25,339 nt of DNA from a virus: the IMG/VR virus record IMGVR_UViG_3300048444_000275, positions 1-25,339 of that record. The stretch is one strand, 5' to 3'. Shown piece by piece: positions 1,111 through 24,900 of the stretch; the first letter of the stretch is position 1; every line of letters starts with the position of its first letter. The translations under genes were made by a program, and so were the position numbers. The notes beneath the pieces were generated by a model. The model ran no database searches, was not told the DNA's origin, and saw nothing but the letters and a program-made list of their open reading frames with translations.

Positions 1111-2490
1111 TTAGGTAGCAGCGTAAGTGATAGCTACGACACCTTTACCATTTCCACTACCAGGAGTAGCTTCGATTAAAGGCTCTAAGTTAAGACGTTG
1201 AGTAGCTACGAAGATACGACGATCTTTCTCTACGTCAAAGTCAGTTTTAACAGTAGCTCCACGTTGACGAGCAACCATGAAGTTAGTTTTATTAACCATT
1301 ACAGCGAAAGCAGTGTCTACAGCTTTAGCAGCAAAGTGGTTAGAAACGATAACCGGCATTCCGTAGATGTTACCTACTTCACCGTTAAGTTTAGTAGACG
1401 CGCTACCAACTTGTTGTACGTCGCCCCATTCACTGTCTTCAAGTAAGTCCCAATAAGCATCTTGAGAAACTACTAGAGCAATTTCGTTTAGCTTGATACC
1501 ATACAGACCTAACTTACGACGTGCTTTAAGGATTTCTTTAGCAGTTACTAGAACAGATCCGTCTGCTTTAGCTGCTGAAGCTTGTACTGCACCTGCAGCC
1601 GTAGCTTGAGTTACAAGACCTTTTGGTTGTCCTGTACCAGAACCTAGCAAGAATGCACGATCGATTTCGTTAGCGTGAGCTTCTACTAAGTGTTGACGTA
1701 GTAAAGGTACTAGCGCGATAATTGCGTCTTCGTCAGTTTCTTCTGTTAAGAAAGTCTTAGCAGCTAGCTTGAACGTTTTTAGTGTGCGTTCTGTTAACGC
1801 GACTGATAGTTCGTCACCAGTAGATGCTGCTTTACCGTAGTCTGCTGCGTCAACCCATGAAGCGTTCTTACGGTCTGGGTTAATTGGAAGAGTCATCTGC
1901 TTAGCATTCATAACTACTTCGTCAAACAAAGGAGCAACTACTAATTCTGCTTGGATATCACGAATTAAGTTAGTAGAGAATTCAGTCTCATAACTTTCGC
2001 TAGATACCTGGATACTAGAACTAGAGTTTACCGCTTTTACACGTTCTTTGAACGACTTACCATAAGAGGTTTCGAACATGTCAGTGCTCTTGATCATACC
2101 TAGCATTACTAGGGTATCTACTTCTTTCTCGCTAATATCAGCCATGCTTGACTTGATACCTGCTGAGATAGGGTTTTTACGAGCTACACTTACTTGTGCA
2201 ATTTCGTCTTTCAACTCTACGATTAAGTCTTCGTGCTTTTTAACAGCTTCAGCAAAAGCGCCGTCTTTTTCGTTTAGTTTAGTTTGTAATTCGTCGATAA
2301 GCTTCTGTGCTTCAGAGCTCGCTGCCGAACGAATTGATTTTTCTGCTTCTTCTTTAGCAGCTTTTTCTGCTGCGACTTTGTCCGCCTCAGCTTTTTCTGC
2401 TTCTTTTTGAGCTTTAACAGCGTCAGTAGCAGCTTTTGATACGTCTCCAAGAAGATCCTTCTTGAACTGTTCTAAGTCAAAGTTATCCAT
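1111..2490 (-). other. nested in-frame start giving a 459-residue capsid precursor
   Basis: Met180 of the fusion is preceded on the minus strand by AAAAAGGA, ten bases before the ATG, which is a usable Shine-Dalgarno inside the coding region. Translation from here would give 459 residues consisting of Δ-domain plus capsid. As I recall, the T5 pb8 precursor is 458 residues, almost the same. I infer two products from one gene: a small amount of protease-Δ-capsid and a large amount of Δ-capsid. No experiment is implied; the spacing is slightly long for an optimal site. Confidence 0.65.
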
Positions 2491-3027
2491 GTCAGTTTTT
2501 TCCTTTTTAATACTGAAGTTTTGTTTAAATGATTCAAAATTATCATCAATACTTTTTGCGACCGAGAAGGTCGAGTCTTGGTTACACGGAACAGCAACAA
2601 CTGAGATTTCTGTTAGCTCTAAATCCGTAATATAGAAAGTATCAGTCTTAGGATCATAGTTTGCATCTTTGATCATAAAACCAACACTAAATGTTGAAAG
2701 GACTTCGTCCTTAATTAGTTGATAAACTTCTCCTGCTGCTTTACTGATTCTAGCTTTTATTTTTAAGCCCATATCAGTGACGCCAGCCTCGATAGTTTTT
2801 CCAATAGGCTTACCGTGGTTATGATAAGCTAGTACAATAGGATTTTTATAGTAATTAGCTAAAGCGTCTGACTTTTGCCAAGTCTCAGTAGGAATTATAT
2901 CCCCTGCCCTATCTCTATTGGTTGTGTTAGCATAACCTTCGATAATTAAGTCTTCCGACTCATCATCAACCATGCCAACTTGTTTAATTCGTGTGTTTAA
3001 GTGAGCGGAATAATTACTTTTTAGCAT
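1111..3027 (-). CDS. prohead protease fused to HK97-fold major capsid protein
   Basis: A 638-residue protein with three parts. Residues 1-165 look like an S78 (HK97-type) prohead protease: AYHNHGKP around residues 67-73, STFSVGF at 111-117 and ELTEIS near 137-142 fit the His, Ser and acidic catalytic positions. Residues 185-285 are a Lys/Glu/Ala-rich coiled coil like the scaffolding Δ-domain. From about residue 290 there is an HK97-fold capsid (EFSTNLIRDIQAELVVAPLF, and the C-terminal MVARQRGATVKTDFDVEKDR). T5 encodes protease and capsid (pb8) as separate genes. Here the frame is open throughout, and Met180 has its own Shine-Dalgarno (separate entry). The start is preceded by AAGGGGG. Confidence 0.92.
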   Translation of the reverse strand: MLKSNYSAHLNTRIKQVGMVDDESEDLIIEGYANTTNRDRAGDIIPTETWQKSDALANYYKNPIVLAYHNHGKPIGKTIEAGVTDMGLKIKARISKAAGEVYQLIKDEVLSTFSVGFMIKDANYDPKTDTFYITDLELTEISVVAVPCNQDSTFSVAKSIDDNFESFKQNFSIKKEKTDMDNFDLEQFKKDLLGDVSKAATDAVKAQKEAEKAEADKVAAEKAAKEEAEKSIRSAASSEAQKLIDELQTKLNEKDGAFAEAVKKHEDLIVELKDEIAQVSVARKNPISAGIKSSMADISEKEVDTLVMLGMIKSTDMFETSYGKSFKERVKAVNSSSSIQVSSESYETEFSTNLIRDIQAELVVAPLFDEVVMNAKQMTLPINPDRKNASWVDAADYGKAASTGDELSVALTERTLKTFKLAAKTFLTEETDEDAIIALVPLLRQHLVEAHANEIDRAFLLGSGTGQPKGLVTQATAAGAVQASAAKADGSVLVTAKEILKARRKLGLYGIKLNEIALVVSQDAYWDLLEDSEWGDVQQVGSASTKLNGEVGNIYGMPVIVSNHFAAKAVDTAFAVMVNKTNFMVARQRGATVKTDFDVEKDRRIFVATQRLNLEPLIEATPGSGNGKGVVAITYAAT

Positions 3028-3238
3028 CTTTTTTCGCCCCCTTAGTGGTAGTTTTCACTTCGTTACGTTTTTCTATAATTCTTGCTAGATAGGCTTGTTT
3101 GAATTTCTCGTAAGAACCAAACTCCTTTCGTAGTTCCAGCATAGTAACGGGTGAAGCCACCGTTGCTTGGTATAAGTCTCTGTCTTCTGGTAAATCATTA
3201 CCATAAACTTTAAAGACTTTTTCAATAGTATCAGTCAT
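3014..3238 (-). CDS. small protein between portal and protease genes
   Basis: A 74-residue protein, acidic and helical in its first half (MTDTIEKVFKVYGNDLPEDR) with a very basic tail (TTTKGAKKDAKK). I chose the ATG that lies seven bases after GGAG at the 3' end of the portal gene. Longer readings from upstream starts would overlap the portal gene deeply. It overlaps the portal stop by 8 bases and the protease start by 14, so it belongs to a coupled head operon. No family recognised. Its position suggests a minor head or assembly factor, which is inference. Confidence 0.7.
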   Translation of the reverse strand: MTDTIEKVFKVYGNDLPEDRDLYQATVASPVTMLELRKEFGSYEKFKQAYLARIIEKRNEVKTTTKGAKKDAKK

Positions 3239-4427
3239 CTTCATTCTCCGGTCTTCCGCCCTCTTGTCCAGAAACTCCAGTACCTGAACCAGCAATATTT
3301 TGAGGAATTCTTATTTTATCCATTTCAGGATCGTCAAGTTTCTCTAAGCGCATTTTTTCTCTAGCCTCATTACCAGTCATAAGACCGTTATTGACTAGAG
3401 TAGAGTACCTATCTGCTTCTGCCTTTTGGTCAGGAAGAAGTGCTGGAACTCTTAAAGTTGTAAGTTCTATATCATAAGCAAAGAAGAACTCTACTGCTGA
3501 TTCAAACTTACGAAGCATTGGAAGAACCTCTGTATAAAACCACAACTCTAAGTTGGGCTTTAAGTTGGCGTTATTGCCTGAGTCCAATAAGATAGGGGGT
3601 ATACCTAAAGCAACACAAACCTTCTTCTCTTTATCAGAAATAGAGTCGTTAAACATCATTTCTCTAAAGTTAGGATTTGTTACTTGCTTAGCTTTCATTC
3701 CGCCGTCTAAAATAATTGGCCTTCCATTCCCTCGCTTAGGATTATACTTTTTCAACCATTCCTTTTCTTGTCTTTCTTTCATTCTAGTATTAAGAATTTG
3801 CTCGGTTTCTATGATCATTCCCATTGCAGTCCCATTCTTGAAGAAACTGTCTTGGAAGTCGACCATCGTCTCACGAGTATAAAGCGACTGTAAGGAGCTG
3901 GTTATTCTAGAGTCGCCACGATATAAGCTAGTAGTGCTATTATCACGGATATGTATAATTTCGTTAGGAAAGAATTCTTCGTTTGTTAAGCCCTCGTACC
4001 TGTAGTATGCAACATAAGCATTCTCATCTGGTACGATTGTAACATTTCTAGCGGGTAGATGATAAAGGGAAGTTCCGTCGAAGTACCAGAAAGTATTTCC
4101 GTCTACTAGAAAGTCAAAAAGACTCAAACGTCTAAAAGTACTTATATCCATATAAGGGTTAGGACGTTTATTTAGTAGCTCATTAATCTTTTTATGTCTT
4201 ACAGAGGTTACTTTTCCTGTGAAACTAAGAGTCTCTCCTACAGTAAAGTCTACTAAAGCTGCGTTATTAGCTATTAAGTTAACACATCTGTTTACTACTT
4301 CGATATTTTCATAAGCTCTATCTATAGTCATAGACTTAGTTTGAGTAGAGCCTTGCTCCCCTTGATCTTCCGCTATTGAGCGTTGGACAGGGTTTAACTT
4401 TTCTAATATTTTTTGCCAAACTCCCAT
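3231..4427 (-). CDS. portal protein (HK97 type)
   Basis: A 398-residue phage portal, forming the dodecameric vertex ring through which DNA is packaged and ejected. Recognisable features are the N-terminal VVNRCVNLIANNAA, the central NEIIHIRDNSTTSLYRGDSRI, the stem-region FFKNGTAMGMIIET and the C-terminal KKVCVALGIPPILLD followed by helices and a disordered Gly/Glu-rich tail. The length is normal for HK97-type portals. It is nine bases downstream of the HNH gene and overlaps the next gene, which fits a packaging-to-capsid operon. T5 pb7 is the positional counterpart. Confidence 0.95.
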   Translation of the reverse strand: MGVWQKILEKLNPVQRSIAEDQGEQGSTQTKSMTIDRAYENIEVVNRCVNLIANNAALVDFTVGETLSFTGKVTSVRHKKINELLNKRPNPYMDISTFRRLSLFDFLVDGNTFWYFDGTSLYHLPARNVTIVPDENAYVAYYRYEGLTNEEFFPNEIIHIRDNSTTSLYRGDSRITSSLQSLYTRETMVDFQDSFFKNGTAMGMIIETEQILNTRMKERQEKEWLKKYNPKRGNGRPIILDGGMKAKQVTNPNFREMMFNDSISDKEKKVCVALGIPPILLDSGNNANLKPNLELWFYTEVLPMLRKFESAVEFFFAYDIELTTLRVPALLPDQKAEADRYSTLVNNGLMTGNEAREKMRLEKLDDPEMDKIRIPQNIAGSGTGVSGQEGGRPENEDD

Positions 4428-4435
4428 CTTTACTC

Positions 4436-4897
4436 CTATAGTATATCGGAAAATCTAGTAAAGGTTTTTGGAATAAATCTCGAAAATCCTTCTGAATTAG
4501 TAGAATGGGATTCCTTTCCCGTGGATCTATCCCTGATTCTTTTTACCCACTCCCTTTGCTTAGGTGCAGTACTTAAAGGGGGTTGAGACCCGTACACTTT
4601 ATGCAAAGCTTTATGGTGAGTATTACAAAGCGTCATAACATCATCGACTAATTCATGCCAATGCTCGTTATAAAATTCTGTTCTTATTTCTAGTATCTCT
4701 TCCTTAGTTTCAGGGTTATAACCTTTATCAAGGCACCACTGGTCAAATAGAAGAGAGACTGTATTAGGGTGATGAAGTTCTAAATCGTCAGTACATCCGC
4801 AGACTTCACAAGTTTCAGCATATTTATAGTTGGCTTTGATTCCATCTCTAATATATCTTATAGCCGATCTCTTCATCCCACCAGTGTTCTTAGCCAT
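4436..4897 (-). CDS. HNH endonuclease next to the terminase
   Basis: A 153-residue protein with an HNH ββα-metal site: a zinc knuckle at C30-x2-C33, LHHP at 41-44, and LCNTHHKALH at 90-99 with C91, H94, H95 and H99. The tail is basic. I chose the ATG nine bases after AAGGA; a GTG two codons upstream leaves too little spacing. It lies between large terminase and portal and has its own strong promoter. HNH proteins here either assist terminase cutting, as HK97 gp74 does, or are homing nucleases. Its neighbours in the head operon make a packaging role plausible, but a freestanding homing gene cannot be excluded. Confidence 0.85.
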   Translation of the reverse strand: MAKNTGGMKRSAIRYIRDGIKANYKYAETCEVCGCTDDLELHHPNTVSLLFDQWCLDKGYNPETKEEILEIRTEFYNEHWHELVDDVMTLCNTHHKALHKVYGSQPPLSTAPKQREWVKRIRDRSTGKESHSTNSEGFSRFIPKTFTRFSDIL

Positions 4898-4976
4898 CGG
4901 CACATATCCTTAAATATAAAGAGAAACCTACCGCATACAATTTGCACACAGCATTTCCCACCGATTCAATAAAGAT

Positions 4977-5005
4977 ATTATAACCTACCAGTATAAAAAT
5001 GTAAA
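4977..5005 (-). promoter_or_regulatory. σ70-type promoter before the HNH gene
   Basis: Minus strand TTTACA, 17-base spacer, TATAAT: five of six plus six of six consensus bases. It lies in the gap between large terminase and HNH and gives a leader of about 70 bases. It would drive HNH, portal and capsid genes independently of the terminase. Confidence 0.75.
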
Positions 5006-5025
5006 GTACTTCTTTTACTCCAACT

Positions 5026-6315
5026 CTATCTTGCTAGGCTATACAGTGCATACCTTAATGCATCGGCTACGTGTGAGTACTCATCGTGTATAGGTTTAGG
5101 TTTCGTCAAGTTTTCATTTGGATCCCAACGATAGTTGACCAACATCTCGATTACATGCTCACACTCTTTATGAACTATTAACTTATCTTGTTCAACTAGG
5201 GACTGTACATAAGATATTCCGTCTAATCTTGATTTCTTAGCATTATTAGAAGGTATATCGTATAAACTAACTAAATCCACACGGAACTGAGCAGCCGCCG
5301 AGTCCACGAAAATCATATCAACTTCATGCTGGTCTATAATAGGCTTAAAGTGGTCTGCGTGTATCTTAGTATTCTTCCCTGCTTGGCAATAATCCCAGAC
5401 ACAATAAAACTTATCATCATCAGGACTGTAATAAACTAGAACAGCACCAGTACTATCTCGGTAACCAGGGTCAATGCCCATAATGCGGTCACAATATTCA
5501 TCTAGGTCTAAGTAGTCAAAGTCCTGAACACACTCTTCAAAGTCAAACCCATCGTAAACCTGACCTTCCATCGTAACGAAAGAAGCACAATACTCTTGCT
5601 CAAATTCAGCACGACTCATAGAGCGCTTAGCTTCCTGGACGTCAACTTTAGTCATTCTAGGGTTGTCTTCCCAAGTAGAGTGTATTGAAGCCCAGCTAGG
5701 ATAGTCGTCGCTCATTCCACGCTCATAGAACTCTTTAAAGTAGTTAGAACCACGAGGAGTACTGATGAATATAACCTTACTGTTTACCTTGTCCAGTGTA
5801 GGACGTAATTGAATGTTATAAGCTTCGCCGCCTTTACCGTCCAATGCGCACTCATCAAATAGTATCAGGTCATAAGAGCGACCAACCAAACTATCCGCCT
5901 GAGAAACAGAACCAAACTTAATGATAGATCCATTCTCTAAGTGGATCTCTTTATCCGTTTTATTTTTAGATTTAACCTCAATACCATGACGTTTTAACAC
6001 TGCTTCCTGTTCTCTCCAGGATATGCCAGTCAGCGAGTAGTTGGGCGATACAATTAATACAGTAGACCCAGGTTCCATTGCCTTCAAAAAGGCAATAACG
6101 TTTGATATGTATGTTTTGCCCGTACGTCGCGACAGGCAGCCTATAACTTGTCGGTGTCTAGGGTCGTTAATAGCGTTTATCATTGCTATTTGGGGTGCTA
6201 TAGGATCTATACCCTCTACCTCTAGGAAGTTTTCTATAGGTAACTTCAGAAACCTGTCAGTTACAGGGAAGTCTACTATGTGCCCTGTTTCTATATAATC
6301 TCTACTTACCTGCAT
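5026..6315 (-). CDS. terminase large subunit (packaging ATPase-nuclease)
   Basis: A 429-residue motor protein. The ATPase half has Walker A SRRTGKT at 62-68, Walker B LILFDE at 150-155 and coupling motif STP at 185-187. The RNase H-fold nuclease half has GIDPG (D282), FVDSAA (D338) and HVADALRYAL (D418). All key acidic residues are present, so it should be active. Its start overlaps the small terminase by 14 bases and has AGAAGGTG just upstream. It pumps DNA through the portal and would cut at the end of the terminal repeat. Confidence 0.97.
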   Translation of the reverse strand: MQVSRDYIETGHIVDFPVTDRFLKLPIENFLEVEGIDPIAPQIAMINAINDPRHRQVIGCLSRRTGKTYISNVIAFLKAMEPGSTVLIVSPNYSLTGISWREQEAVLKRHGIEVKSKNKTDKEIHLENGSIIKFGSVSQADSLVGRSYDLILFDECALDGKGGEAYNIQLRPTLDKVNSKVIFISTPRGSNYFKEFYERGMSDDYPSWASIHSTWEDNPRMTKVDVQEAKRSMSRAEFEQEYCASFVTMEGQVYDGFDFEECVQDFDYLDLDEYCDRIMGIDPGYRDSTGAVLVYYSPDDDKFYCVWDYCQAGKNTKIHADHFKPIIDQHEVDMIFVDSAAAQFRVDLVSLYDIPSNNAKKSRLDGISYVQSLVEQDKLIVHKECEHVIEMLVNYRWDPNENLTKPKPIHDEYSHVADALRYALYSLAR

Positions 6316-18004: not shown

Positions 18005-18874
18005 TTACTTGTTGGCTTCGATAAACGGAACGGCTTGATTTGGTAGCATAGTTTTAGGTAATTGCCCATCCCAGTTTTCTGCTTTAACTAACTCAATTAG
18101 TGCGGCGTTATTTTTCAGAGCATCAGCACGTTCTTTAATAGCTTCTGCTTCTGCTTGACCGCGCATTTTAATAGCGTCTGCTTCTGCTTCAGCAGCAAAT
18201 CTAACTTTATCTGCATCCGCTTGAGCTTTAGTACGAACAATATCTGCTAGAACTTTCTCACGCTCTAGGTTTTGTTGTTCTTTTTCTACCGCTACTTCCG
18301 CTAACATACGCTGCTCGATTGAATCTTCGTATACACTTGAGAATTTAACATCCTCAATTTGAACACCCAGAATAATCACAGGCGCGCCTGAGCGCTCGAT
18401 AGAGGAGGTCAGCTCAGAAACCATGTCCGCATTCAGCTTACCACGCTCTTTAATGGCTGTGCTAGCATTATATCGGCCAAATACTACTTTAACTTGCTCT
18501 AGTGTTTTACGGGTAATGATACGGTCAACTACGCCCATGCGATCCCCGTACTCAGAGTATACCTGCTCAACCCTAGATGCGTCGATTTGGTAGCTAACTG
18601 ATACGTTCAAAGAAGCTGATTGCTGGTCATTACTATAAGCACCTAAATTGGTATAACGAGCATAGTGCTCTTGAACACTCACCTCGCTGGTGTTATCCAT
18701 AATTGGAACCTTGAAGTGTAGTCCTGGATCGGATACAGTTACTACTTCTCCATAACGAGTTACTACTGTTCGCTCACCTTCGTCAACAGTGTACCAACTG
18801 CCTAATACTAGGGTTAATAAGAAGATAGCCAGAATAGCTCCTGAAATACTGGTAATAATTTGCTTAGTCGTCAT
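18005..18874 (-). CDS. SPFH / band-7 (prohibitin-stomatin) membrane protein
   Basis: 289 residues. A membrane helix at about 8-28 (SISGAILAIFLLTLVLGSWY) is followed by an SPFH domain (VDEGERTVVTRYGEVVTVSD, DPGLHFKVPIMD) to about residue 200. A long Ala/Glu/Lys coiled coil (190-260) and a short tail complete it. This is the HflK/HflC/prohibitin architecture, where proteins build ring-shaped membrane scaffolds and modulate proteases such as FtsH. It is the full length expected for a functional member. AAGGA lies six bases upstream, and the start overlaps a 42-residue membrane protein gene. It may shield phage proteins from FtsH or organise the envelope; that is inference. Confidence 0.92.
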   Translation of the reverse strand: MTTKQIITSISGAILAIFLLTLVLGSWYTVDEGERTVVTRYGEVVTVSDPGLHFKVPIMDNTSEVSVQEHYARYTNLGAYSNDQQSASLNVSVSYQIDASRVEQVYSEYGDRMGVVDRIITRKTLEQVKVVFGRYNASTAIKERGKLNADMVSELTSSIERSGAPVIILGVQIEDVKFSSVYEDSIEQRMLAEVAVEKEQQNLEREKVLADIVRTKAQADADKVRFAAEAEADAIKMRGQAEAEAIKERADALKNNAALIELVKAENWDGQLPKTMLPNQAVPFIEANK

Positions 18875-18992
18875 TTTTGTCCTTAGTGTTGTTGAAGTGT
18901 TGATCTGCTTTTTTGTCTAAAATAGAACGGATACCGAGATAGAAAATATATCCGATAACCGCTAATCCAATAACTGCCAGTCCTAGTGTCAT
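18864..18992 (-). CDS. 42-residue single-pass membrane protein partnered with the SPFH gene
   Basis: MTLGLAVIGLAVIGYIFYLG forms one helix, followed by a polar charged tail (KKADQHFNNTKDKNDD). The start overlaps the upstream stop (ATGA), and its last 11 bases overlap the SPFH start, whose ribosome-binding site it contains. Tight coupling suggests it acts with the SPFH protein. Unknown family. Confidence 0.68.
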   Translation of the reverse strand: MTLGLAVIGLAVIGYIFYLGIRSILDKKADQHFNNTKDKNDD

Positions 18993-19645
18993 AATAAGTT
19001 CTTCCCGTAAAAAGTTACGCTACCGTCTGGATTCACAGTTTGAATATTGTGAACTAACTTGGTGGGGATTTCTACTACTCGTCGTACTTTACCTTGAGTG
19101 CTTACTACAACACCTTCTGGTAGATTCTTATCTTTGACATTCTCAGTGTACCTAATAAGTAAGGTTTTAGAGCCGCTTTTGTCTGTTCGCACTTTAGCGT
19201 CTACAATACCCTTAAAGGTGTATTTATTACCATTAGTGTAGGTTAACGTAACTTTTTTGTAGGTTCCGTTAAATACACTACGGTCTCTAACGGTAATGTA
19301 CGTTTTGAGACTTTTACTATCAAAGTGTAAAGAGCTCGGCGGACCTATTAGTTGTAAAGCGTGTTCAATATCATTTTTATTAATCATAGTTCTTCCTGTT
19401 TGTGTCCCTTTTATCTCTAGTCTTATGCGAAAATCCAAAGCATTTCCTTTGAATCTAACTTTTGCGTTCACTAGGCGTTGTAACTCTTGTAAACGGTCTA
19501 TACAACGTACTTTTCCTGAGATTATAATTGTATCATCAGGATACCCAAAAGTAACGAAGCTATGAGGTGTCATAGCTTCTTTTACCATAGACTTAACCTC
19601 GGCCATAGTACCTTTAGTTAGTTTTCCAGTTACTACTGCTTCCAT
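18989..19645 (-). CDS. 218-residue protein downstream of the NadV-like gene
   Basis: A β-rich soluble protein with repeated strand patterns (FVTFGYPDDTIIISGKVRCI, KKVTLTYTNGNKYTFKGI, SVTFYGKNLL at the C-terminus). The first 85 and the last 100 residues both look like two-strand-plus-helix modules. It overlaps the NadV-like gene by 13 bases and so is co-expressed with the NAD pair. No recognised catalytic motif. Its conserved company makes it worth testing as an accessory factor, but no function is proposed. Confidence 0.72.
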   Translation of the reverse strand: MEAVVTGKLTKGTMAEVKSMVKEAMTPHSFVTFGYPDDTIIISGKVRCIDRLQELQRLVNAKVRFKGNALDFRIRLEIKGTQTGRTMINKNDIEHALQLIGPPSSLHFDSKSLKTYITVRDRSVFNGTYKKVTLTYTNGNKYTFKGIVDAKVRTDKSGSKTLLIRYTENVKDKNLPEGVVVSTQGKVRRVVEIPTKLVHNIQTVNPDGSVTFYGKNLL

Positions 19646-21222
19646 AAACGCTCCCTAATCTCTACAAAGTTTTGCTCATTATAAACTTTACCGTCTTTAA
19701 ATACGGTTTGTAATAACCCTTCTTGTTCTTGTTCTGGAGTTTGCTGGTCGAATAATGCAATTTCACCGAACTCGTCGTAGTCTACACGCAGTAGACCTTT
19801 AGCAGATTTTTTAGTACCGTCATCAGTGGCTGGGTCTTTGAATAGTTCATGACCTTCACCCTCAATTTCCGCATAAGTAGCTTTAACTGCCATACCTAGA
19901 TTATCACGAGTCATAAGTTGCATAGTAAACGAGCCGACACCGAAGATTACATTAGTAGAAGCGAAACCTTTATCTGCTAGGCGTTCACAAATTTGGCTAA
20001 TACGTTCGTAGTTCATACTATCCCCGTAGATTAGGCCTACGCGCTCATGTAGTACCTTGTATCCTTGTTCGGTCTCAGTACCGCCAAAAATATCCCATAA
20101 TACTTGAATTGCACCTTTGACTTCGTGCTCTGCTAGTTCTCTGCCTTTACTCCACCCATTAACAGTTGGAACTACTTCGTAGTATTTTCCGTTTTCTTCC
20201 ACTGCCTCACCAATAGTCGGTACAGTGTCATAATCTAATTTTGTTACCTTATAACCAGTAACAATCTTAACAGGATCGCCGCTGTCTGGACGGAACACGA
20301 CTTTCGCAAGTCCAAGTTCGTCCGGTTGGCGGTTCAAAATGTCTTGTTTTAATTGTGGTGCGAACTCGGTTAGTACATGCCAGAAGTCGTAAGTGTCACT
20401 AATAACAGATACAATACCTGTTGGGTAATCGTCACGAATCCATTTACGGATCATTTCTTTCTCCCCACGTACAGAAGTACCCGCAGATGCTAGGCTGTGC
20501 TCACTAGCGGGAACAGACGTAGCCAAGAACGTATCCTCTACTGAAGTATCGTAGTATTTCTCGATAAAAGGCAGAGATACAATGTTGTCAGTTCCGCAAC
20601 TAGAAAGTAAGAAAGCTGAACCAGACTTAGCAGCGTCAAAGCGGTTAGCCATACCACGGAAGCTGAAATCATGCAACTGAAACTCAGTTCCTTCAGTAGA
20701 TCCTGTGGTTGCTTTAGCCCACTGGTTGACTAATTTACGGTAGTGATAAATAATAGTAGCTACTGTAGGTGCTTTCCAAGTTTCAGCGCTCATAACAGTT
20801 TCTAGGTAATTAGTTAACCATGCAAAATCTGGATGAGTATTCTTGATAGTGTACATTGGAACTTTTAAAGGACACAAGGTGCCTTCTGGTAAAGCTTTGA
20901 CTTCAATAGGTAAATATCCTAAGTCATATAGCTCACCAAAATGAGCAGTATCGGTCATACCAACATAACCTTTAAATAGCTTCTCCGCTAGACCTACTGC
21001 GTGTACTTTAGGCAGCTTGAAGAACCCGTTATTAAACTCACTAACTAAAACATCCAAGATTGCATGTTGAATACCATAAACTACTACTTTACCGTTAAAG
21101 TTAGGTAAGTTTAGGTGTTTAGCGCTTCGTGCTGTCATATTAGCATAAATCAATGAAGTTCCAGGCTCCATAAAACCTTTGTGAGATAATTTATAGCTGT
21201 CTGTAAGAGTAATCGGGTTCAT
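19633..21222 (-). CDS. nadV: nicotinamide phosphoribosyltransferase-like enzyme (NadV / Namat candidate)
   Basis: 529 residues, full length for the NAMPT family. HDFSFRGM at 184-191, VPASEHS at 237-243 (H242 lies where human NAMPT has its catalytic His247) and FRPDSGDP at 310-317 are all present. NAMPT joins nicotinamide and PRPP to give NMN. In phages, a NadV-like gene next to a Prs-like gene has been shown to work as Namat in NARP1, joining nicotinamide to ADPR-pyrophosphate to remake NAD+ directly. The start shares a base with the stop of the Prs-like gene (TAATG). The exact substrate cannot be told from sequence here. Confidence 0.93.
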   Translation of the reverse strand: MNPITLTDSYKLSHKGFMEPGTSLIYANMTARSAKHLNLPNFNGKVVVYGIQHAILDVLVSEFNNGFFKLPKVHAVGLAEKLFKGYVGMTDTAHFGELYDLGYLPIEVKALPEGTLCPLKVPMYTIKNTHPDFAWLTNYLETVMSAETWKAPTVATIIYHYRKLVNQWAKATTGSTEGTEFQLHDFSFRGMANRFDAAKSGSAFLLSSCGTDNIVSLPFIEKYYDTSVEDTFLATSVPASEHSLASAGTSVRGEKEMIRKWIRDDYPTGIVSVISDTYDFWHVLTEFAPQLKQDILNRQPDELGLAKVVFRPDSGDPVKIVTGYKVTKLDYDTVPTIGEAVEENGKYYEVVPTVNGWSKGRELAEHEVKGAIQVLWDIFGGTETEQGYKVLHERVGLIYGDSMNYERISQICERLADKGFASTNVIFGVGSFTMQLMTRDNLGMAVKATYAEIEGEGHELFKDPATDDGTKKSAKGLLRVDYDEFGEIALFDQQTPEQEQEGLLQTVFKDGKVYNEQNFVEIRERLWKQ

Positions 21223-22031
21223 TAAATAATCCTTTGGTAAAAATAAACAGAATCAACTTCTAGTGAGTTAATACCTTTTGAAAAAATTCCGTGGGTGACA
21301 TAGAGAACTATTGATTTAGCTCCTTGCTCACGCAGTTTTTGTGCTGCTATATTAAATGTTGCTCCACCATCGCAAATATCGTCGCATATAATAACATTTC
21401 GACCTTTTACACTTGTGCCTTCTAAAATCTCAAGACCGGAAATGTATCCATTGTGTGGATTTCGTTCTTTTCGGCACAAAGAGTAGTCTTTTCCATGTTC
21501 TTTAGCTATGTCAATTACGTTATCCCAGGCACCTTCGTCTGGCGCTAGTATAATTGGGTTATAGTTTTTTACAAACTCTTTTAGAGGTTTATTTCGGTTG
21601 AGTACTTGTTTAAAACAATGAGCCTGACTAAGCACCGTTACCTTATCTACCTGAGGAGCGTTTTCCATTACGGCGTCTAGATTATGTGGGTCAGTTAGCT
21701 CAAGTTCGTTGATATCTAACAGTGCAAATGTTCGTAAAAAGATTTTTAAAGGATTAGCGTAACCTTCTCCGAAAGGGCGGTCTGCTCTAGCGTACGGTAG
21801 ATATGGTAAGCATACCTTTAAGTGAGCAAACACGCTCTTTTCTATTAAAATATCGTATACCTGTTGAATAACAGTAGAGTAGCTATCTGCTGATACATTC
21901 TGTATTGTAATTACAGCCCTTTCGAAGTCTTTTGGTAAGCTAGGAGCTACAACGGAACTAGCTCCGTCTGAAAATTTTATAACCTTAAAGTTAAAAGGTT
22001 TGTTGTCGATGACTACTTGTACTTGAAACAT
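21222..22031 (-). CDS. prs: ribose-phosphate pyrophosphokinase-like enzyme (Prs / Adps candidate)
   Basis: 269 residues, shorter than bacterial Prs (about 315). YLPYARADR at 77-85 and the DPH of TDPHNLD at 114-116 fit the ATP/flexible-loop and catalytic regions. APDEGAWDN at 163-171 and the phosphoribosyl-binding loop CDDICDGGAT at 216-225 are recognisable. Prs makes PRPP from ribose-5-phosphate. The phage homologue Adps of NARP1 instead pyrophosphorylates ADP-ribose, the product left when defence enzymes destroy NAD+. It overlaps both neighbours and shares one promoter with the NadV-like gene. Adps versus Prs needs biochemistry. Confidence 0.9.
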   Translation of the reverse strand: MFQVQVVIDNKPFNFKVIKFSDGASSVVAPSLPKDFERAVITIQNVSADSYSTVIQQVYDILIEKSVFAHLKVCLPYLPYARADRPFGEGYANPLKIFLRTFALLDINELELTDPHNLDAVMENAPQVDKVTVLSQAHCFKQVLNRNKPLKEFVKNYNPIILAPDEGAWDNVIDIAKEHGKDYSLCRKERNPHNGYISGLEILEGTSVKGRNVIICDDICDGGATFNIAAQKLREQGAKSIVLYVTHGIFSKGINSLEVDSVYFYQRII

Positions 22032-22561
22032 TCTAGCTCCTTATTAATTTCCTCTAATTCAGCCATAAGCTGAGTTCTTAATTCAGTAATTTCTACTCTA
22101 CGATTTCTCAAATAGTCTCGGCGTTCTTTCGCTTTTAGCTTTTCCTGCTCTCTTTTCCATTGAACGTGTTCAGGTCTTTGTTCTTCGAAGCCGTTATGGG
22201 CTATGTGAATAGGATTAGTAGGATCATATTTAATAATGATAGCGTCAGAATTACTAGATACGAAGTCTACTTCTTCTTCTACATAATCTTCCGATATTGC
22301 ACCAGACCCGCACTCAGGGCAGTTGCCTTGAGAGAGCCCTCCGCCCTCTTCTTCGCTATAATGGCAATTATCGCACTCTAGAACAACTTCTGGAGACCGA
22401 GCACTATAAGCAGCCTCTCTTTGCTCTTCCCACACTAAATCTTCTGCTTCTTTTTCATTATCGAACTCACGAAGCTCAAAGAAATTACCTTTACAAGGGT
22501 TCTTTATGTAAGAGTCTCTATGCCAAAGTGTTCCAGATTCTACTTTTACTAGAAATAACAT
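22013..22561 (-). CDS. zinc-ribbon protein heading the NAD operon
   Basis: 182 residues. CDNC at about 63-66 and CPEC at about 81-84 form a zinc ribbon in the middle. The N-terminus (FLVKVESGTLWHRDSYIKNP) is β-rich and the C-terminus is a long coiled coil (EQEKLKAKERRDYLRNRRVE). First gene after promoter 22594-22622, with GAGGG before the ATG. It overlaps the Prs-like gene by 19 bases. No specific family; perhaps a nucleic-acid or protein adaptor. Confidence 0.75.
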   Translation of the reverse strand: MLFLVKVESGTLWHRDSYIKNPCKGNFFELREFDNEKEAEDLVWEEQREAAYSARSPEVVLECDNCHYSEEEGGGLSQGNCPECGSGAISEDYVEEEVDFVSSNSDAIIIKYDPTNPIHIAHNGFEEQRPEHVQWKREQEKLKAKERRDYLRNRRVEITELRTQLMAELEEINKELECFKYK

Positions 22562-23360: not shown

Positions 23361-23524
23361 CATTTCTCCAAATTATTGTTTACATAGTCTAGGTCAAACC
23401 ACTTGCAGTTTTCTTCTTTGTATTCTTCCTCTACAGGGTAGGCTAGACACTTGTCATGGTTAGTTATTACTACTTCAAATACGCGATCTTTATGTGTAAA
23501 AGTCTTGTTATTATTTTCAAACAT
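23360..23524 (-). CDS. 54-residue acidic protein after the macro-domain gene
   Basis: MFENNNKTFTHKDRVFEVVI, then a Glu-rich stretch (YPVEEEYKEENCKWFDLDYV). Overlaps the macro-domain gene by eight bases and the TM2 gene at its stop, filling the gap exactly. No clear Shine-Dalgarno, so it probably depends on translational coupling. Function unknown. Confidence 0.6.
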   Translation of the reverse strand: MFENNNKTFTHKDRVFEVVITNHDKCLAYPVEEEYKEENCKWFDLDYVNNNLEK

Positions 23525-23954
23525 CTTTTTTGTACCATACTACGTTATGTACCATATCTTCTACGATTTTCTTGACTAACTTCCAGTCTCCACCTGCTCG
23601 GTCAGATCCAAACTTGTAAGGAAAAGCATAAGTTTTATCCTGACCAAGTTCAGTAGCCACTTTCGATAACCCAGTAGCTAAAGCTTCATAGTGAAGCTGG
23701 CGTCCTGTTGCTGCATAAAAAGGGCCGTAAGTTCCGTAGTATTCTTGAGCAAATAGGTTAATTACATTGCCGCCCTCACAAAAGGTTCCTAGTACTTGTG
23801 GGCTATCCATATACACTGCGTATGCCATAGGCACTCTGTTCTTTATTTCTAAAGCAATACCTGAACCCATAGTTCGTTGGCAATTAACGCAATGTACTAA
23901 ATAGTCTACTTCTCCGTTTAATAATGCTGTTACTGCGTTGCCTTGTTTAATCAT
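23517..23954 (-). CDS. macro-domain protein (ADP-ribose binding / Appr-1''-p phosphatase type)
   Basis: 145 residues forming one macro domain of the Poa1p/ALC1-like kind. VDYLVHCVNCQRTMGSGIAL at 16-35 holds the conserved Asn and Gly-rich nucleotide loop; FCEGGNVINLFAQ at 58-70 and FPYKFGSDRAGGDW at 111-124 form the second and catalytic loops. Such proteins bind ADP-ribose or remove a 1''-phosphate or ADP-ribose from targets. It lies in the operon next to the NAD cassette, which suggests work on ADP-ribose derivatives or on ADP-ribosylated phage or host molecules. Substrate unproven. Confidence 0.88.
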   Translation of the reverse strand: MIKQGNAVTALLNGEVDYLVHCVNCQRTMGSGIALEIKNRVPMAYAVYMDSPQVLGTFCEGGNVINLFAQEYYGTYGPFYAATGRQLHYEALATGLSKVATELGQDKTYAFPYKFGSDRAGGDWKLVKKIVEDMVHNVVWYKKDV

Positions 23955-24412
23955 TTCAACAACTCTCCTAGTCGTTTTCGCTCTTGCTGTTCTTTAGCTT
24001 CTTTAGCTTCTTTATACGATTTGAACATTTTGGCTTCCCAACGGGCAGCTATATTAGTATATAAATACTCTTGCTCTTCATCGGTCAGCCGTATATCAAA
24101 GTCTTTTATAGAAACCCGATAATTAGCATTACGCCCGTAACTTTGTGTAAAGGTAAATACTACTTCTAAACCTGCATCTTTTAGTATAAATATTTTGATT
24201 TTAGTCAGGGCGTTTCCAAAAGTAAACCAACTACTTTCACGGAACCTAGAAGCCTCAGGAACCCATTTAACCTTAAGTTTATCTGTGTCTTTATACTTTT
24301 CTACCAATTCCTGGACTGGATAGCTCACTTTCTTTAGTTCTGGCATTTTTGCCTCGCTAGTATTGGGAGGCAACGGATTACTGCCTTTCTGTCTTTTTGA
24401 ACGACAAAACAT
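23951..24412 (-). CDS. 153-residue early protein, lysine-rich C-terminal helix
   Basis: The start region is basic and Pro-rich (MFCRSKRQKGSNPLPPNTSE), the middle β-rich (KVKWVPEASRFRESSWFTFG) and the end a charged helix (KEAKEAKEQQERKRLGELLK). The ATG shares a base with the metallophosphoesterase stop (TAATG), and the gene overlaps the macro-domain gene by four bases. An internal Met23 (MPELKKVSYP) is an alternative start. No family recognised. Confidence 0.7.
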   Translation of the reverse strand: MFCRSKRQKGSNPLPPNTSEAKMPELKKVSYPVQELVEKYKDTDKLKVKWVPEASRFRESSWFTFGNALTKIKIFILKDAGLEVVFTFTQSYGRNANYRVSIKDFDIRLTDEEQEYLYTNIAARWEAKMFKSYKEAKEAKEQQERKRLGELLK

Positions 24413-24900
24413 TATAACTTACCTGCCATTAATTCTTGAAACGAAATAGGCTTATACTCAGTATGTTCAACACAGATATTAATGTATCTAGAGTCATCAA
24501 TGCAGTAGTCGTGAGTATGCCCATGAATATTGAATTTCTTTCCTCTTAGTTCATCGGGATGCATTGGGCAGTGACTAAACCAACAGTTACGTTTGCTAAA
24601 CAAACCCGATACTTCATCAAAAACTTCTGCTAGATCTCGAATTCCTACATTACGTTCAGTGTCATGGTTTCCGATTACTAGTGTCATCTTTTGACACTTA
24701 ATTTCTTTCAAACGATATAGCCACTCTTTAGTAAAAGCAACATCTCCTAGCAAAATCACACTATCCCGTTTATTTATATTACTAGCAAAGTTTTCGAAAA
24801 TTGTTTCATGGTGGTCCTCTGCGGACTCGAACTCCGTTCGGTATTTGCAGATGGCTCTATGGCCTAGATGCAAGTCCGAACCTAACATTAGTCTACTCAT
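24412..24900 (-). CDS. calcineurin-type metallophosphoesterase
   Basis: 162 residues with a complete metal site: SDLHLGH at 8-14, GDVAF at 52-56, GNHD at 77-80, FSHCPMH at 108-114 and NIHGHTH at 124-130. Length and order fit small YfcE-like phosphodiesterases common in tailed phages, which act on nucleotides or nucleic acid ends. It overlaps the upstream membrane-protein gene by eight bases and sits one gene upstream of the macro domain; both could act on nucleotide derivatives. It is clearly different from the A1-like protein, which is more than three times longer. Confidence 0.92.
   Translation of the reverse strand: MSRLMLGSDLHLGHRAICKYRTEFESAEDHHETIFENFASNINKRDSVILLGDVAFTKEWLYRLKEIKCQKMTLVIGNHDTERNVGIRDLAEVFDEVSGLFSKRNCWFSHCPMHPDELRGKKFNIHGHTHDYCIDDSRYINICVEHTEYKPISFQELMAGKL

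Follow-up and report, generated by a model that had tools for sequence, protein, structure and literature searches.

Among the closest described relatives of the locus analysed here is the NARP1 module of Bacillus phage SPbetaL1, composed of an ADP-ribose pyrophosphate synthetase (Adps) and a nicotinamide ADP-ribose transferase (Namat), for the latter of which structures are available (PDB 9w5x and 9w5w; PMC12774641). Genetic work on Vibrio phage ICP1 showed that its nrsAB genes are required to overcome the NAD-depleting Nezha system (PMC11559045). The window, i.e. the whole stretch of DNA that was analysed, is a linear fragment of 25,339 bases from the IMG/VR virus record IMGVR_UViG_3300048444_000275, and it carries a Prs-like gene directly followed by a NadV-like gene. 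A preliminary description of this DNA had proposed that the pair rebuilds NAD+ in the way of NARP1, and the comparison of sequences, trees and structure models supported this proposal: the pair very probably represents a NARP1 module, predicted to restore NAD+ from its breakdown products.

In the predicted pathway, Adps would attach a pyrophosphate from ATP to the free ribose of ADP-ribose, yielding ADP-ribose pyrophosphate (ADPR-PP), and Namat would combine nicotinamide with ADPR-PP to NAD+ and pyrophosphate without the help of a nicotinamide mononucleotide (NMN) adenylyltransferase. NAD+ cleaved to ADP-ribose and nicotinamide by TIR, SIR2 or comparable defence NADases would in this way be restored during infection. 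We infer this substrate, activity and counter-defence role from the features below and the comparisons that follow. Both open reading frames were found where the preliminary description had reported overlapping genes, with a single base in common.

21222..22031, minus: Adps-like gene of the Prs family, 269 aa (open reading frame, phrog_619, TIGR01251, tree, AlphaFold2 model)
19633..21222, minus: Namat-like gene of the NAMPT/NadV family, 529 aa (open reading frame, phrog_448, PDB 9w5x/9w5w matches, Foldseek, tree)
21220..21224, minus: overlap of Adps stop and Namat start codons, base 21222 common to both (open reading frame coordinates)
21354..21383, minus: ribose-phosphate-binding loop D217-F226 of the Adps-like protein, DDICDGGATF (canonical DDMIDTGGTL; loop alignment)
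21115..21120, minus: clamp-loop residues K35-H36 of the Namat-like protein, at the position of Namat R40 and the next one (alignment)
19903..19935, minus: clamp helix motif GSFTMQLMTRD, with F432 equivalent to Namat F392 and L436 in place of Namat Y396 (alignment to SPbetaL1 Namat)

Assignment of the Prs-like and NadV-like proteins

The Prs-like protein was assigned to phrog_619 by family search (E 8e-56, far beyond chance). Its score against TIGR01251, the ribose-phosphate diphosphokinase family, was 103 bits with a cut-off of 113, and it stayed far under every Prs equivalog cut-off. For the phylogenetic tree, canonical Prs sequences were taken from bacterial genomes that also carry Adps-Namat-like pairs. 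The Prs-like protein was located on the Adps side, separated from canonical Prs by a 100/100 split, where it joined ICP1 NrsA and the protein of Noelle in a group with 100/98 support; Bas63 also fell on the Adps side. The AlphaFold2 model (pLDDT 93.9) matched PRPP synthetases, and 20 out of 21 conserved columns of the Adps family were kept.

The first Thr of the phosphate loop of Prs helps to hold the 5'-phosphate of ribose 5-phosphate. This Thr was present at a fixed position in all nine canonical sequences, with Thr-Leu/Ile at the loop end. Among 157 Adps-like loops, 156 end with Phe and 148 have Gly or Ala instead of the first Thr; the window has Gly, and its loop reads D-G-G-A-T, not the canonical D-T-(A/G)-G-T. 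A short Prs with altered loops had been taken in the preliminary description as a sign of a changed substrate. The altered loop agrees with this, being of the Adps type and without the phosphate-binding Thr; the shortness is a trait of the family, as SPbetaL1 Adps has 272 aa. Based on sequence and model, the Prs-like protein is predicted to be an ADP-ribose pyrophosphate synthetase.

For the NadV-like protein, family search gave phrog_448 with an E-value of 1e-179, far beyond chance. A phmmer search of the PDB ranked Namat 9w5x/9w5w (E 4e-125) before Haemophilus ducreyi NadV (HdNadV; 1.6e-105) and human NAMPT (about 1e-62). The same order was obtained by Foldseek with the AlphaFold2 model (pLDDT 90.6), where 9w5x/9w5w were best with E 2e-57 and a TM-score of 0.86 by query length, followed by HdNadV and NAMPT. 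In the tree a 100/100 split separated the Namat side, which comprises the protein together with those of SPbetaL1, Bas63 and ICP1 and further Adps-linked proteins, from the NAMPTs of human, Xanthomonas, Matisse, XacN1, BUCT608 and phiAS5. Placement with ordinary Prs and NAMPT, which the preliminary description had named as refuting its proposal, was not seen for either protein.

The residues that contact nicotinamide and ribose are kept (window numbering D8, Y10, F186, S187, R189, D212, A239, R311, D313, G400 and D401), and every Namat core residue that was checked has an identical counterpart in the alignment, with the exception of A362, where the window and most relatives have Ser. The classical NAMPT signature GG(A/G)LLQ is absent from the protein. 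Among the 115 conserved columns of Namat only five differ, four of these by conservative changes, and the relatives show at least as many deviations. The closest of these (fetched loci carry L numbers) were L008, an IMG/VR contig of 85 kb, with 69% identity, L102 with 67%, L118 with 60% and Rheinheimera phage Barba19A with 59%. On these grounds the protein is a predicted nicotinamide ADP-ribose transferase. Near full-length relatives of its gene occur in more than 1,800 phage records, and for this reason the pair itself is ordinary within a known family; what remains of interest is the clamp variant and the link to a macro-domain gene, both described below. A scan of viral contigs with the Prs-like protein alone gave no loci and with the NadV-like protein alone two, and an alignment query was used instead.

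No NMN adenylyltransferase (PF01467) was found in the window, in line with the preliminary description, which had seen none. Since the window is a genome fragment, absence of a gene within it is weak evidence by itself. PF01467 was likewise absent from each of 15 complete or almost complete phage records with an Adps-Namat pair, including the L008 contig and Barba19A. Matisse and XacN1, two phages with NAMPT-type enzymes, do contain it, and in BUCT608 an NMN adenylyltransferase is annotated beside NAMPT. One exception was the L009 contig, a more distant relative with a PF01467 match, in which the Prs-like gene lies 2.8 kb away. The two genes stay together in nearly all relatives: only 16 of the NadV-like loci fetched had no Prs-like open reading frame, and these include the two NAMPT-type phages as well as loci whose flanks are short.

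The adenine clamp and other explanations of the pair

Adenine recognition in Namat involves the loop residue R40 (or Lys/Tyr and then a stacking residue) together with F392 and Y396, both carried by a clamp helix with the motif GSX-phi-X-phi-X-phi-TRD (PMC12774641). In the window, Phe occupies position 3 of this motif and Leu position 7. The codon of L436 is CTT (19917-19915), two base changes away from a Tyr codon, so that a single base-call error cannot explain it. At the Y396 position Tyr was found in L008 and Met, Cys or Leu in other Adps-linked relatives, Leu otherwise only in the L103/L104 pair. The K35-H36 pair of the clamp loop is shared with LAh6, phiA8-29, Noelle and L102, and His36 presumably stacks there. 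Mutating one clamp residue of SPbetaL1 Namat lowers activity only 1.3 to 1.7-fold, and the double mutant R40A/F392G is 16.6-fold less active (PMC12774641). Because single mutants lose so little, the window Namat is expected to have kept the use of ADPR-PP despite L436. This residue offers a natural experiment on how complete the published selectivity clamp needs to be.

Among the relatives, HdNadV has lost all three clamp elements (Glu, Gln and Arg instead), and its structure 9ke8 is a co-crystal with NMN. HdNadV reportedly also features in work on engineered E. coli that makes NMN. Its gene lies at 3828-5315 of H. ducreyi plasmid pNAD1 (L216), a plasmid of 5.6 kb with no annotated Prs. HdNadV is apparently a reversion from Namat-like to NAMPT use.

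Related pairs were also found in bacteria. In ten bacterial genomes with such pairs, a canonical Prs (350-420 bits) was present besides the Adps-like one. Operons of this type in Acinetobacter, Citrobacter, Siphonobacter and others lie next to a gene for an NrtR-type regulator, composed of a Nudix and a winged-helix domain; they look like chromosomal NARP1 modules. One of these regulator genes is misannotated as an NMN adenylyltransferase. An identity as NadM, taken from annotation for the gene beside bacterial pairs, was rejected, as Pfam gave Nudix and NrtR winged helix. A record labelled as an Acinetobacter phage is apparently bacterial DNA, with transporters and metabolic genes around the pair, and was counted only as a bacterial relative. 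The regulator genes identified by Pfam were:

L005, 7543-8310: NrtR-type regulator gene
L035, 2211-2930: NrtR-type regulator gene
L032, 2371-3069: NrtR-type regulator gene

Several observations weigh against a NARP1 module in the window. Namat Y396 is replaced by Leu, and 17 other aligned sequences, including two NAMPT-type rows, have no aromatic residue or His there. HdNadV, a working NAMPT, is placed within the Namat clade next to SPbetaL1 (97 SH-aLRT), so membership of this clade alone is no proof of Namat function. The Adps branch is long (1.55 versus 0.42 and 0.69 for two sisters), and its activity could have shifted. An NMN adenylyltransferase is possible elsewhere in the complete genome, beyond the fragment. 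The pair could alternatively serve ordinary salvage, in which Prs would make PRPP, NadV would make NMN and the host NMN adenylyltransferase would complete NAD+. Such salvage would fit with the incomplete clamp, with the nested position of the NMN-forming HdNadV and with the NMN-forming activity that Namat keeps on PRPP (PMC12774641). However, the window loop lacks the Thr found in each of the nine canonical Prs, bacteria already own a canonical Prs, as in the ten pair-bearing genomes, and HdNadV has neither the clamp nor an annotated plasmid Prs, whereas the window keeps Adps and two out of three clamp elements. Ordinary salvage was accordingly judged very improbable. Linkage to Adps and the clamp residues are better criteria than family or clade, which by themselves will lead to wrong functional annotation.

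A relaxed or drifting NARP1, with a changed clamp and a fast-evolving Adps resulting in weak or dual-substrate activity, would account for the rare Leu at the Y396 position and for the long Adps branch. Degeneration of Adps, suggested by the branch length, was rejected because the conserved columns are kept. Both reading frames are intact and overlapping, few Namat columns deviate, and the small losses of the single clamp mutants also argue against drift, which makes this explanation improbable. The same chemistry could also serve another purpose, i.e. topping up NAD+ for phage replication or recycling the ADP-ribose that ADP-ribosylation produces, and not specifically the defeat of NADases. 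Related pairs are common in bacterial chromosomes beside NrtR-type regulators, a housekeeping role has been proposed for them (PMC12774641), and the macro-domain gene in the cluster would handle ADP-ribose derivatives. Against this, the ICP1 relative is required specifically on Nezha hosts and is costly without Nezha (PMC11559045), and a purpose of this kind was considered not very likely for the window. A NARP1 module directed against NAD-depleting defences remained the preferred explanation of the pair.

The macro-domain gene and the gene neighbourhood

The genes between about 25.3 and 18.0 kb all run in one direction and are tightly packed. The following features accompany the pair:

23517..23954, minus: macro-domain gene, TARG1/Poa1-like, 145 aa (phrog_335, Barba19A macro protein, profile A3)
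22013..22561, minus: 182-aa open reading frame, possible zinc ribbon (weak zinc-ribbon matches), overlapping the Adps start by 19 bases
18989..19645, minus: 218-aa open reading frame overlapping the Namat end by 13 bases, with no significant family in phrog and Pfam searches

The preliminary description had placed the pair under one early promoter and the macro-domain gene in an adjacent operon. The promoter was not borne out: between 17.9 and 25.3 kb, 22 promoter-like matches were found with 19.9 expected from shuffling, and none of them fell immediately before the pair or into the gap of 153 bp below the macro gene. Terminator-like sites were likewise at shuffle level, and no operon boundary could be drawn from the scan. 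The macro gene is real (phrog_335, E 2e-30); its separate operon found no support in these scans. Since the genes are co-directional and tightly packed, one transcription unit for the pair and the macro gene is as likely as two.

The window macro protein showed 48% identity in alignment to the annotated macro protein of Barba19A. Its single-sequence Pfam score was below threshold (14.6 versus 22 bits). The family profile A3 matched BT1257, human TARG1 and yeast ADP-ribose 1''-phosphate phosphatase in the PDB, with E-values of 1e-44 to macro structures and 2e-17 to Poa1. Within the fetched flanks a macro gene was present at 27 of 101 viral loci, and every macro match, in viral and bacterial loci alike, shared the strand of Namat. 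In Noelle, L109, L116, L139/L148/L165, L173 and the bacterial loci L076 and L086, it lies between Adps and Namat (the Prs match of L086 is a short fragment). The macro gene was located at most 2.5 kb from Namat in 17 of 27 macro-bearing whole records versus 1.5 expected, and in 10 of 20 versus 1.04 expected with one record per group, figures that derive from a profile built from nearby macro genes, hand-drawn groups and records treated as non-circular. Macro genes cluster with Adps-Namat pairs beyond chance. Examples of macro genes that lie beside Adps and Namat or, in several distinct lineages, between them are:

L013, 3423-3899: macro gene
L116, 5233-5751: macro gene
L139, 5473-5988: macro gene
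L173, 1343-1822: macro gene
L076, 3503-3973: macro gene

This clustering raises the tentative possibility that the macro protein acts as a third functional component of phage NARP1, which would convert non-usable ADP-ribose derivatives into free ADP-ribose for Adps. Its substrates could be ADP-ribose 1''-phosphate, O-acetyl-ADP-ribose, or cyclic or DNA/protein-bound ADP-ribose. RyDEP in the NARP1 locus of a mycobacteriophage is a direct precedent for such a feeder enzyme (PMC13232231). If true, the phage would remove an immune signal or toxin and at the same time feed NAD+ synthesis, as RyDEP does for cyclic ADP-ribose. A DarG-like role, the removal of ADP-ribose from DNA, is another possibility given partial matches, and would also free ADP-ribose; PADLOC returned only partial domain matches, which were uninformative. 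Iyer and colleagues described phage macro domains as well as NADAR genes adjacent to NadV (PMC9503650), and the link between macro genes and NARP1 may already have been noticed in print.

A gene for a calcineurin-like phosphoesterase (24412-24900) belongs to the same gene run as the pair; in the NARP1 locus of Aeromonas phage LAh_6, such a gene also adjoins Namat. Downstream of the pair, an SPFH/Band 7 membrane protein is encoded at 18005-18874, followed by a terminator-like hairpin (18000-17980). In L008, a 185-aa gene resembling SLOG/DprA (4576-5133; weak DprA match, E 0.27) immediately precedes Adps, and genes for RNA ligase and Pnkp (1282-3575) are found nearby.

The terminase of the window (5026-6315) is of the T5-like vibriophage type. 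It is 58% identical to the terminases of T5-like vibriophages, whose genomes measure about 112 kb, and the window is perhaps about one fifth of a genome. No match to this terminase was found in the records of the pair's relatives L008, L102, L118 and Barba19A, some of which are fragments, and this suggests that the NARP1 pair has moved between phage lineages. With the window, a T5-like phage fragment would join the carriers of NARP1, and the phage is predicted to resist NAD-depleting defences.

Comparison with known systems

The NARP1 module of SPbetaL1 also consists of two adjacent genes in the same order, on the same branches of both trees. Its Namat is 46% identical to that of the window (alignment A5) and has the same catalytic core. 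It differs in the clamp, where the window has Leu for Y396 and Lys-His for the loop Arg, and in Adps, which is only 23% identical; no macro gene was found in the SPbetaL1 record, unlike the window.

NrsA of ICP1 groups with the window Adps (100/98), whereas NrsB is placed apart from the window Namat and no macro gene was found in ICP1. In the ICP1 locus 2017_Dha_X (L012), a stop codon interrupts Namat early in its frame, which agrees with the published nonsense mutation of nrsB in one ICP1 isolate (PMC11559045).

Rheinheimera phage vB_RspM_Barba19A, besides its 59% identical Namat, carries macro, Adps and Namat genes in one row and in that order, as does the window. Its macro gene abuts Adps, while that of the window lies 1.5 kb upstream. 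The NARP1 locus of mycobacteriophage DyoEdafos includes an accessory enzyme releasing ADP-ribose (PMC13232231), a function proposed for the macro protein of the window; RyDEP of DyoEdafos is a RyR-domain glycosidase acting on cyclic ADP-ribose, and the window has a macro-domain protein instead. The NAMPTs of human and Xanthomonas and HdNadV share fold and catalytic core with the window protein, but they have no adenine clamp, with GGxLLQ in NAMPT and GAQTYQR in HdNadV.

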